NCBI RefSeq assembly: GCF_002994745.2
Contig: NC_037092.1
Location: 71,461,823-71,525,822 of the forward strand
Source: Rosa chinensis
Taxonomy: Eukaryota; Streptophyta; Magnoliopsida; Rosales; Rosaceae
Reading direction: 5' to 3'
Length of the DNA stretch: 64,000 nt
The position numbers and the translations under genes were made by a program. The notes under the pieces were generated by a model, which searched no databases, had not been told where the DNA came from, and was given only the letters and a program-made list of their open reading frames with translations. The number at the start of each line of letters is the position of its first letter. The first letter of the stretch is position 1. Below, one piece after another: positions 59,775 through 64,000 of the stretch.

Positions 59775-59982
59775 ATTCAACAAGCATAGAACTTGAAGTT
59801 TGGTTAGAGTCAAGAACGATTTGAAATTGTTAAAGTCAAGACTGTGAAGGATAAATGAATTCGATTGCTAAAAATAAATATATATATAGTTTTAATTTGT
59901 TATGATTTCAACTTTTAAATTTAATAGATGATTGAGATGCAATTATCTTTCACGATTCCTACTATACATTATATAAAGTAAA
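59775..59982. other. Host flank left of the MULE
   Basis: Aligns with 47378-47560. It contains the left target duplication TAAAGTAAA at 59974-59982. About 17 extra bases before it are missing from unit 3. Confidence 0.6.
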
Positions 59983-60574
59983 GGATTAAATATTGTTTAC
60001 TCCCTAAACTTTTACCCAAAAAACACTTCAGTCCGTGTCTTTCTAATTTCACATATTTACTCCTAGTATAATTTTGGACCAATAGGTCTAATCTGTTACT
60101 CTCCGTCAAAAAACTCCGTTAACTAGATGACGTGGCAATCCCTACCCCATTAAAATGTCCATTACACCCTCAGTTCATCTTTTTTCTTTTTCTTAATTTA
60201 TTTTTGGAAAAAATTCTGCTTACTACCCTGTACTTTCAAGGTTTCGTCAGTTCAGTCCCTGTACTTCTAATTTAATCAGAAAAGTCCTCGCATTCTCCAA
60301 TTTCATCAAATCGATCCCTTTCCTCACCATTCCGTCAATTTCCTCTGTTTGGGTGCTGATGTGTCCGGACGCCGTTTGATTTGTCTGATTTGTGGGACCT
60401 TCTCACATGCAAAATTCCCAAGCTACCCTCCTTTTCATTCCTTCCCTCGTTCAATTCTCAACCAGCTTCCCAAGATCGATCTGATTCATTCAGCCTAGCC
60501 ATCGCCGATTCCATTATTCACATATTCAAGCTCAATCCGATTTAAGAACCACCTCTCTCTCATCGCCAATTCAC

Positions 60575-61018
60575 ATGATCGATGACCCCAGCAACCATCC
60601 TCATCCTCCTCAGGCCTTCTCAACTAGATGCCCCCACCTCTCTGACCCCAAAGCCATCGCCACCATGACCCGTGTCGTCTCCGACGTCGCCCAGACCCGC
60701 TCCGTCCTCAACGCCCTTAACGATCGTCCCGACCATGAGACCATCGACACCACCAAGGCCAAGCTAACCCACATCGAGTCCACTCTCTCTAAGAAGCTCG
60801 AGGACCTCGTCCTCGCCTATATTGTTAACGGCGACTCGCATAACAAAACCAATAAGAAGAAGAAGAAGAACAAGAAATCCAAAACCGACACAGCCGCCGT
60901 GATTCCCACCGTCACCATAGCCATCGCCGGTTCCATCATTCACAACGCTCAGTCCCTCGAACTTGCCACTCGAGTGCTTCTCTATTCCTCTAATCCCTCC
61001 CTACCCAACAAGATTTAG
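60575..61018 (+). CDS. Chimeric open frame in Pack-MULE: PIRL-like N-terminus fused to SPOUT methyltransferase fragment
   Basis: A 147-codon frame. Residues about 18-80 (HLSDPKAIATMTRVVSDVAQ, then TRSVLNALNDRPDHETIDT and AKLTHIESTLSKKLEDLVL) resemble the N-terminal region of plant intracellular Ras-group LRR proteins (PIRL1/9 type), before their LRRs. Residues about 93-133 (a lysine-rich stretch, then IPTVTIAIAGSIIHNAQSLE and LATR) match the start of the SPOUT RNA methyltransferase family (At5g19300/human SPOUT1). The last 14 codons read into an intron: the family match resumes at 61069 (QIARAITIFRVDEVVAFDN) after an acceptor ctcag. Neither parental catalytic or LRR part is complete. Whether it is transcribed is unknown. 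The frame is uninterrupted and GC-richer than its surroundings. Confidence 0.6.
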   Translation: MIDDPSNHPHPPQAFSTRCPHLSDPKAIATMTRVVSDVAQTRSVLNALNDRPDHETIDTTKAKLTHIESTLSKKLEDLVLAYIVNGDSHNKTNKKKKKNKKSKTDTAAVIPTVTIAIAGSIIHNAQSLELATRVLLYSSNPSLPNKI

Positions 61019-61066
61019 CTTCAATCTTTTTTCTAATTCATTTATTTGTTCTTTTAATCTCAGCTG

Positions 61067-61140
61067 GCTGTCAGATTGCTCGTGCCATCACAATTTTCCG
61101 AGTTGATGAGGTGGTGGCATTTGACAACATCAGTAAGTAT
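61067..61140 (+). pseudogene. Second exon of the captured SPOUT methyltransferase
   Basis: It follows a CTCAG acceptor. The reading AGCQIARAITIFRVDEVVAF then DNIS matches the family right after LATR, which shows that genomic DNA with its intron (about 60974-61066) was captured. One base is off frame at the junction compared with the expected LAGQIAR. Confidence 0.7.
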
Positions 61141-61931
61141 GGCTCTCCGGAAGCTAATAATTCCGATGAGAATTAAAGCGAGGCTGGGGGAGTCTGGCCG
61201 GTCAGATAACAACGGCAGCTTTGGATTTTTTTTGGAGTCATGGGTGTGGTTGGTAATGAGCTTCTGTCGTTCTTCTTCCTAGGCGTGGGTCTGGTTAATA
61301 GTGGGCTGGGTGGGTGTGGTTGGTAATGAAATTTTGATTTGGGAAGAGATCTGTATCTTTGGTTTTGATTTTCATGTTGGGTTTACATGCATCTTGATTT
61401 GAATTTTGTTCAGATTTGGTTTTTCTGCATCTTAGTTGAATCTAGAGGACTCATCTCAACCAAATTGGGTTAATTCGCACACCCAAATACTTAAATTTTT
61501 TGGGTTTGTTGTGAGCATGATCTCGGCCCCATTAATGATCTCAGACTCGCTCATCTTCTTCCAGCCATGTTGATCGGTGGAGGAAGTGAGGAACCATAAC
61601 CAAGAGCTGAGAAGAAGAAGAGAAGACGGGGTTCTGGGGAATTAGGCTGCTCGGGTGGGAAAGGGGAGGGAGATATATTGGAGGGGTACGTTGGGAATTT
61701 TGCATGTGAGAAGGTCCCACAAATCTGACAAATCAGACTGCGTCCGGACACGTCAGCACCCAAACAGAGGAAATTGACGGAATGGTGAGGAAATGGATCG
61801 ATTTGATGAAATTGGAAAGTGCGAGGACTTTTCTGATTAAATTAGAAGTACAGGAACTGAACTGACGAAACCTTAAAAGTACAGGGTAGTAAGCAGAATT
61901 TTTTCCTTTATTTTTTTACCTTTTTTTAATT

Positions 61932-61934
<3 letters not shown>

Positions 61935-61989
<55 letters not shown>
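61935..61989. repeat. (TC)n microsatellite
   Basis: About 27 dinucleotide units directly right of the inner MULE. It creates a false Arg-Glu-repeat frame on the minus strand. Confidence 0.92.
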
Positions 61990-61994
<5 letters not shown>

Positions 61995-63289
61995 CCTTCT
62001 GTTTATCTATTCTCCGCTCCATCCTCGTCATTGCCATTGCCACCTCCACCACCATCCCTACCCAAGTTGCAGCCAAAGGTTGTTGCGACACCCATTCACC
62101 GCCACTATCACCCACACTTCCTTTACCCCCCGTTTTCTTACTTTTCTCTCTTTCTACCAAAACCCATATATAAACTCTCATAATCCATCCCCATAGATCT
62201 CTCCAATCTCCATCTTTGACCTCCCTCGATTGGCAACACTTGCAAACAATACATAAAACATAACTCATCACCGTAGAACAATACACAAAACAAAATTAGC
62301 AGTAGGAAGCTCTCAGTTTTCAAAACTTATCCATTCATGTTATGAATCAAAATAGCATACATGCCTATTAAAGGCAAAAATCACAGAGCAACAACCACAG
62401 TAAAACACAAAGTTCAAATCATCGAAACAAAAACAAAAATAGCTAAAAGCTTTCATAATCGTCAGATCAGAGTTGATATTATAGATGACACAATCAAAAA
62501 TCATAAACAATTTCCACAACCCATAGTTTTTCAAGATCAAGAGAAGACACAGCACCCTCTGCCTCCACGACGCCATTGGGTGTGCTGCGAGTGAAAAAGG
62601 GATTATCACCATCTGAGAAGAATTCTGAATCTTGTGAAGTTGTATTGAACCTCTGTCTCGTCGCCTCTCATCCGGCCCTCTGTCTCTGCATCAATTTTGG
62701 CTGCAATTTGCAACTATTTCTCACCATAACCCATGGTCGTCATCCACCCGATCTAGAGCTACGATCTCCTGGTCGAGACGTATATATATGTATTCGAACT
62801 ATGAGGAAGAGAGAGAAGCTTGTACCTTTTGGACGACTCGTTTCAAAACTGAATTGGATCAGCCCCAAAATCCAAAACCAAATTAGATCAGCCCCGAAAT
62901 CCAAACCTGTCCTCTCCTTCACCGACAAGGTCAAGGACTACAGCACCAGCCACAAGCTGCAAATTTGGAAGCAAAACGCCGTCGTCTTTCCAGACCCGAT
63001 CTAAGCACAAGCCAACAAGTCCCAGCTAGCCATGGCAATCGGAATTGCGTGGCGCTTAACCAGAGGGGAGATCAACTCATCCACCGCAGTTGGAAAACCT
63101 GTAGCAAGAGAAAGGAAAAGAAATGGAGGATAGGGGTTTAAGAAGAGAGTGAGAAAGTGAGGAAGATTGAGTCTGTGAAGAAGGAGACAGAGGTGCCGAG
63201 GTCGATGTCTATTGGGTTTGCATGTTTCTGGTGGAAGAAGAAGAGATAAATAGAAAAATATATATATAAAAAAAATTAAGAAAAAGAAA
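61990..63289. other. Interior of the outer MULE, right part
   Basis: An open frame at 62576-63004 (142 codons, plus strand) includes KPVLSFTDKVKDYSTSHKLQ and IWKQNAVVFPDPI near its end. I do not recognise the family; it may be another captured fragment. No transposase was seen. Confidence 0.4.
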
Positions 63290-63491
63290 AAATGAATTGA
63301 GGGTATACTAGACATTTTAATGGGGTAGGGATTGTCACGTCATCTAGTTAACGGAGATTTTTTCCGGAGAGTAATGGAATAGACCTATTGGTCCAAAATT
63401 GAGAGTACAAGGAGTAAACTTGTGAAATTAGAAAGACATGGACTTAAGTGTTTTTGGGGTAAAAGTTCAGGGAGTAAACAATATTTAACCC

Positions 63492-64000
63492 TAAAGTAAA
63501 ATAAATACCAGAGCCTATTTCATGCAACTATAATGCATAAGCACTAGTAGGGTTCATGCAGTGAGCTGGTTTTTCCTCCTTCCATGCACCATCTCTAAGG
63601 TTCTGACCATGGAATTGTTTTTAAAGGACAGTCTGGTCCAGTTTAACCACTGCCACAGCTCTAACACCCTCCATAATAGCCGATTAGAGCATATCAAATA
63701 GGAGACTTGAAACCCAACTGTATAGGTTGTAACTGAGTTCTTCCTCTTTCGGCCACCTCGAACTTATTCGCCACTAGAGTTGTGTTCCTCTCTTCTTTGA
63801 TGTTCCAATGTCACTAACCATGTACATCGGATCAATGTGTGGATGGAGAAAGTATAATTAAAAAATCTTGGCACAAAATCTTTCAAGATAAACTTTTTAT
63901 CTCTTATTCATATTTGAACTACGCCCCAGAAAAGTTATAGTCGAACTAAAGACAAAATCAATTGTCATCAGTTTCAACCTGTGATGATTAAGCGGTGGCT
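63492..64000. other. Host flank matching the region upstream of GRAS copy 4
   Basis: From the right target duplication on, it aligns with 47570-48297, with an internal deletion near the telomere-like repeat (63900). In unit 3 the matching endpoint lies about 445 bp before a GRAS start codon, so another GRAS copy is expected beyond the right edge. Confidence 0.7.

Follow-up and report, generated by a model that had tools for sequence, protein, structure and literature searches.

Positions 60206–61906 of the window, which is the whole 64,000-nt stretch of Rosa chinensis DNA that we analyzed (C5:71461823–71525822), hold a 1,701-bp non-autonomous MULE (L001). This element is very probably a composite, multi-copy Pack-MULE, in which pieces of unrelated host genes were joined by exchange between elements and which came to occupy at least five sites before decaying neutrally. 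The genome searched for copies and donors comprised 515 Mb in 53 contigs. The features on which the argument rests are the following:

59974–59982 and 63492–63500, no strand: TSD TAAAGTAAA of the outer element, identical at 9/9 positions
59983–63491, no strand: outer MULE-like element of another TIR family (TIRs 59982–60204 and 63268–63492, 88%)
60197–60205, no strand: left TSD TTTATTTTT, 9/9 the same as 61907–61915
60206–60428, plus strand: left TIR, 223 bp, 95% complementary to 61684–61906
60428–60477, plus strand: piece of the PIRL9 5′ untranslated region, 50 bp, 85% to L023 upstream of the L023 ATG
60490–60522, plus strand: second copy of a SPOUT1 exon-1 stretch, 33 nt, 88% to 60912–60944
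60575–61018, plus strand: chimeric open frame, 147 codons, ending inside the intron (stop at 61016–61018)
60585–60814, plus strand: PIRL9 exon-1 piece, 87% to the PIRL9-like gene L023 (the match runs to 60817)
60625–60627, plus strand: TAG in the PIRL frame, directly before ATGCCC (CAG in the PIRL gene; from the five-copy alignment)
60815–60820, plus strand: filler GCCTAT, 6 nt, at the PIRL/SPOUT1 junction, by comparison with both genes
60821–60973, plus strand: SPOUT1 exon-1 piece with lysine-rich leader, 90% to the L011 gene at the protein level over 51 aa
60974–61063, plus strand: SPOUT1 intron 1, in one place 22 bp shorter than in the L011 gene
61064–61185, plus strand: SPOUT1 exon-2 piece, out of frame through a 1-nt deletion common to all five copies
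61186–61237, plus strand: non-SPOUT1 sequence, common to L009 and L010, with an identical 3′ junction
61325–61683, plus strand: 3′ module common to L006-type elements (element positions 1120–1696 match at 84–85%)
61684–61906, minus strand: right TIR, 223 bp, 95% complementary to 60206–60428
61907–61915, no strand: right TSD TTTATTTTT, 9/9 the same as 60197–60205

An earlier note, made from the letters of the window, had called the element a Pack-MULE, and this assignment held: TIRs, TSD and host-gene pieces were all found at 60206–61906. The 9-bp duplication TTTATTTTT that it named matches at 9/9 positions between 60197–60205 and 61907–61915, and the inverted repeats, which it put at ≈210 bp, are present with a length of 223 nt. 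The element thus has the long TIRs of a MULE (223 bp, 95%), a TSD in the 9–11-bp range (9/9 in the window copy and 8–9/9 in all five copies) and TIRs akin to those of a transposase-coding element (85–87% alike in L013). Host-gene fragments with donors elsewhere in the genome (the PIRL9-like gene L023 and the SPOUT1-type gene L011), as in a Pack-MULE, were also found. No transposase of its own was detected: blastn found no match to the transposase piece of L013 in L001–L005, and no Pfam transposase family was found in the 147-aa frame.

The 5.3-kb relatives L013, L014 and L016 have related TIRs (85–87%), perfect 9-bp TSDs and frames resembling transposase. A domain scan, which covered L013 of the three, showed that it encodes PF03108 (DBD_Tnp_Mut), PF10551 (MULE transposase) and SWIM; the frames of L014 are near-identical to those of L013, a degree of similarity that suggests recent activity. 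A frame adjoining L013 resembles a subtilisin-like protease. Because its TIRs are akin to those of the transposase-coding L013, the window element was classified as a non-autonomous MULE that was probably mobilized in trans. It is nested: the insertion lies in the outer MULE-like element, at the inward-facing end of the left TIR, and the inner content of that outer element spans ≈62000–63260.

The first part of the frame (residues ≈18–81) was confirmed as the N-terminal PIRL sequence that the earlier note had recognized. It matched the Rosa sericea PIRL9-like protein P0001 with 84% over the scored stretch (E 2e-25), and the piece corresponds to residues ≈51–121 of this 515-aa protein. The naming came from the protein search, as this half had no match in Pfam or PDB; with no LRR family found by Pfam, the piece does not carry the leucine-rich repeats of a PIRL protein. 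The likely donor, judged by similarity, is L023 on C6, which encodes a PIRL9-like protein matching P0001 residues 1–515 in three stretches at 93–98%. The L023 gene also shows private changes (H for N in SVLHALGDR relative to P0001), and since L024–L026 in the module map hold PIRL pieces without the TIRs of the window element, the real donor may be a different PIRL copy.

The second part (residues 83–136) is of SPOUT1 type. Comparison with the L011 gene on C4, which has an exon 1 with the same lysine-rich leader and an exon 2 matching PF02598 (5e-25), also bore out the leader and the first intron that had been proposed for this part. The predicted splice junction, 60974/61067, was right for the donor at 60974 but not for the acceptor, whose AG ends at 61063, so that exon 2 starts at 61064. 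When joined across the frameshift, the second half and the exon-2 piece matched structures of C9orf114 (E 1e-8), which we take to be human SPOUT1. The exon-2 piece matched PF02598 in Pfam with E 8e-6, ≈1 bit under the curated cut-off, and exon 1 with 0.012, likewise under it. This is not a complete methyltransferase domain, as the first ≈56 of 302 profile positions are covered, split over two frames. The L011 gene, of SPOUT1/C9orf114 type, is the likely donor on the same kind of evidence. The 33-nt scrap of SPOUT1 sequence upstream in the element is 91% identical to the SPOUT1 gene in the L005 copy.

All seven SPOUT1-carrying elements show the same 12 substitutions, 1-bp gap and 22-bp gap relative to the L011 gene; these differences are unpolarized, and some may be changes in the L011 gene itself. 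The same seven elements switch to non-SPOUT1 sequence at one 3′ junction, shortly past the GATGAGAAT stretch. Together, the shared differences and the common junction speak for a single SPOUT1 capture. The L011 gene adjoins L009/L010 in a tree of the SPOUT1 pieces, in which the pairing of L009 with L010 has a support of only 0.80.

The genome search for further copies, as the earlier note had suggested, returned four more insertions with the fusion. These near-full copies, on C1, C2 and C3 (two), are 90–93% identical to the window element. The flanking repeats differ among the five copies, matching at 9/9 positions in L001, L002 and L005/L012 and at 8/9 in L003 and L004; that of L002 consists of nine A's and is therefore weak. 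One end is set apart by intervening sequence in both L003 and L005, which we read as later insertions. The PIRL–SPOUT1 joint is present in the alignment of all five copies, with a 2-bp deletion at this point in L002 and L004. As the joint is common to five insertions with different TSDs, the fusion is old and predates their spread.

The captured pieces recur in other combinations. The module map covered 38 loci, 4 of which were repeats of mapped elements, leaving 34 distinct ones; the genome searches behind it gave 110, 43, 23 and 41 matches, part of each being taken in, and the PIRL-side stretch accounted for 43 matches with the five copies and the gene counted in. Among the 34 distinct loci, 13 elements combine PIRL with a piece of L-cysteine desulfhydrase (LCD), 2 combine LCD with SPOUT1 and 5 combine PIRL with SPOUT1, and no element was found with PIRL, LCD and SPOUT1 together. 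The LCD piece was identified by 169 protein matches, the best from Rosa (80–83%); many of the best 120 of these 169 are named L-cysteine desulfhydrase, and two Rosa chinensis entries among them are named isopenicillin-N epimerase. It had no match in Pfam or PDB. The 13 PIRL+LCD elements all have the order PIRL, then LCD, with TIR matches on both sides in 12, and L027 (C4:7769838), with a GH3 piece (GH3_M, 5e-18) besides those of PIRL9 and L-cysteine desulfhydrase, has sequence from three genes. In L009 and L010, LCD precedes the SPOUT1 5′UTR, exon 1, intron and exon 2, with TIRs on both sides in L010 and on one side only in L009. In its 3′ part the window element falls into another subfamily, L006–L008.

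Two other observations were made in the course of the mapping. L051/L053 (C5:64219186–64219800) is a PIRL+LCD element with a partial tandem duplication of the PIRL–LCD unit. A shorter stretch of LCD is present at ≈20 more places, six of which (L059–L064) were mapped and had no match to these TIRs; this stretch may be carried by another gene family or transposon.

The earlier note had regarded the fused frame as a candidate new gene, meaning an expressed chimeric protein of 147 aa, or of 205 aa if spliced, that is under selection. The 147-codon frame does exist at 60575–61018 (177 codons from stop to stop), and both halves are also in frame in two other copies, so that the reading continues across the joint in three of the five (147 aa in L001, 176 aa in L005 and 121 aa in L003); the GT/AG of the intron is intact in the window copy. 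However, the frames of L002 and L004 stop at the joint after 65 and 47 aa, and L004 and L005 no longer have the GT of the intron donor. SPOUT1 exon 2 lacks one nucleotide in all five copies, a nucleotide that L009, L010 and the L011 gene retain; owing to this loss, splicing of a window transcript would bring in exon 2 in the wrong frame, giving the 205 aa. The ATG at 60575, described as the frame's own, sits in non-PIRL filler outside the PIRL frame. In place of the CAG of the PIRL gene, each of the five copies has TAG before ATGCCC, and the upstream ATG is linked to the PIRL frame past this TAG only by an extra C (within 60631–60635), a 1-bp insertion found in the window copy and L005. When the 30 protein matches to the whole frame were tested with each half apart, 16 matched the first half only and 14 the second only. 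None of the 30 matched both, in agreement with the proposal that the halves come from separate genes and against a fused protein. A few local alignments extend across the joint, into sequence that is lysine-rich or belongs to the leader (P0013, 20–110; P0017, 61–136; P0032, 61–135; P0019; P0026). Separately, a strawberry protein model (P0006, Fragaria x ananassa) has the same PIRL N-terminus joined to a helicase part (PF00270, PF04851) that resembles Dicer-like proteins.

The substitutions among the copies bear on the same question. Raw pN/pS among the five copies ranges from ≈0.2 to 2 and is <1 in most pairs, which could be taken as favoring a gene; as a sign of constraint this was rejected, because it fits a substitution spectrum rich in C>T. 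In most comparisons, divergence is as high in the coding parts as in the intron, or higher. For a test of neutrality, the 67 substitutions relative to the five-copy majority were redistributed according to their own base-change types over 112 codons, a number that gives the test little power. Non-synonymous and nonsense changes made up 42 of the 67, compared with 44.3 expected (P 0.29), or 43.2 when CG/CHG context was included (P 0.40), and there were 4 nonsense changes where 0.9 were expected. Purifying selection on the fused frame was thus not seen in this type-matched, low-power test. C>T or G>A accounts for 41 of the 67 substitutions, 30 of these at CG; the pattern is that of silenced and, presumably, methylated sequence. 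Nothing in these comparisons supports a selected gene, and with stops at the junction in two copies, exon 2 frameshifted in all five, a start joined through a single inserted base, and substitutions that fit neutrality with nonsense changes in excess, we consider the new-gene reading very improbable.

That the fusion is an artefact of assembly or annotation has nothing in its favor and a negligible probability, as the same junction is present at five separate loci (C1, C2, two on C3, and C5) with different flanks. A single element might instead have taken up PIRL and then SPOUT1, or the reverse, without recombination between Pack-MULEs. The earlier note was right about two gene pieces, but too simple in having them just captured and joined, as the elements that carry a third gene piece speak for exchange among Pack-MULEs. 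Such serial capture would account for a PIRL piece that reaches further 3′ in the window element than in L027–L029 and for a TIR-to-PIRL junction that differs in detail from theirs. On the other hand, the SPOUT1 3′ junction is the same as in the LCD+SPOUT1 elements L009 and L010, and the 3′ part comes from yet another subfamily, L006–L008, so that mosaic exchange seems to be needed anyway. We therefore regard serial capture as unlikely, though far less so than the new gene. The window element looks like a product of recombination between Pack-MULE lineages.

Our preferred explanation, the composite Pack-MULE assembled by exchange, would proceed as follows. Pieces of PIRL and SPOUT1 would have been captured by Pack-MULEs of one TIR family, SPOUT1 once and PIRL once or repeatedly, and these elements would have been mobilized in trans by relatives of the same family that code for MuDR-type transposase. 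Then, by template switching or during repair between such elements, PIRL and a truncated SPOUT1 piece would have been brought together. The scrap at 60490–60522, the 6-nt filler and the mosaic ends fit template switching between related elements. The PIRL piece may have been captured separately, since it is longer on its 3′ side than in L027–L029 and the 34 loci include no PIRL+LCD+SPOUT1 element. The recombinant would have reached at least five sites and, probably subject to DNA methylation, undergone neutral decay since, and the open frame in the window would be a chance survivor without a demonstrated product. More broadly, we think it somewhat probable that captured exons of PIRL9, L-cysteine desulfhydrase, SPOUT1 and GH3 are exchanged within one rose MULE TIR family as in a common pool, a second-order exon shuffling of which several combinations are extant, some of them in frame.

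Our literature search returned no paper combining Rosa chinensis and Pack-MULE, and the papers matching Rosa and Pack-MULE included no rose genome study, judged by their titles. Pack-MULEs with at least two donor genes are already established, and the most interesting side of the rose element is the visible network of shuffled modules, since the route to two-donor elements is, in our judgment, rarely visible. With other pairings, likely donors and five daughter copies in one genome, the order of capture, recombination and decay becomes datable and testable. The case also carries a warning, since one copy with a long in-frame fusion says little in favor of a new gene.

In rice and its relatives, 5–10% of MULE-derived putative genes are reported to have at least two parents in most Oryza species, and the majority of such genes are suggested to evolve neutrally (PMC4858842). 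The rose element resembles these multi-parent Pack-MULEs in being a non-autonomous MULE with unrelated host-gene pieces in one frame; unlike them, as far as that account goes, it has another host and other donors, and rose elements with other pairs of the same pieces are extant and can be compared (PMC4858842). The FoSTeST model, as outlined for multicopy Pack-TIRs in animals, has a chimera formed by template switching and then amplified by transposase (PMC8277862). The rose copies likewise share one structure and have distinct TSDs, but the switch in rose seems to have taken place between elements that already carried captured genes, a difference from the animal cases as far as they are described there (PMC8277862). 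PM-ZIBP of tomato is similarly a Pack-MULE family of a dicot in which one captured piece is present in several copies; it is notable for tandem TIRs in 13 of 14 copies, whereas the rose element has single TIRs (PMC3310237).
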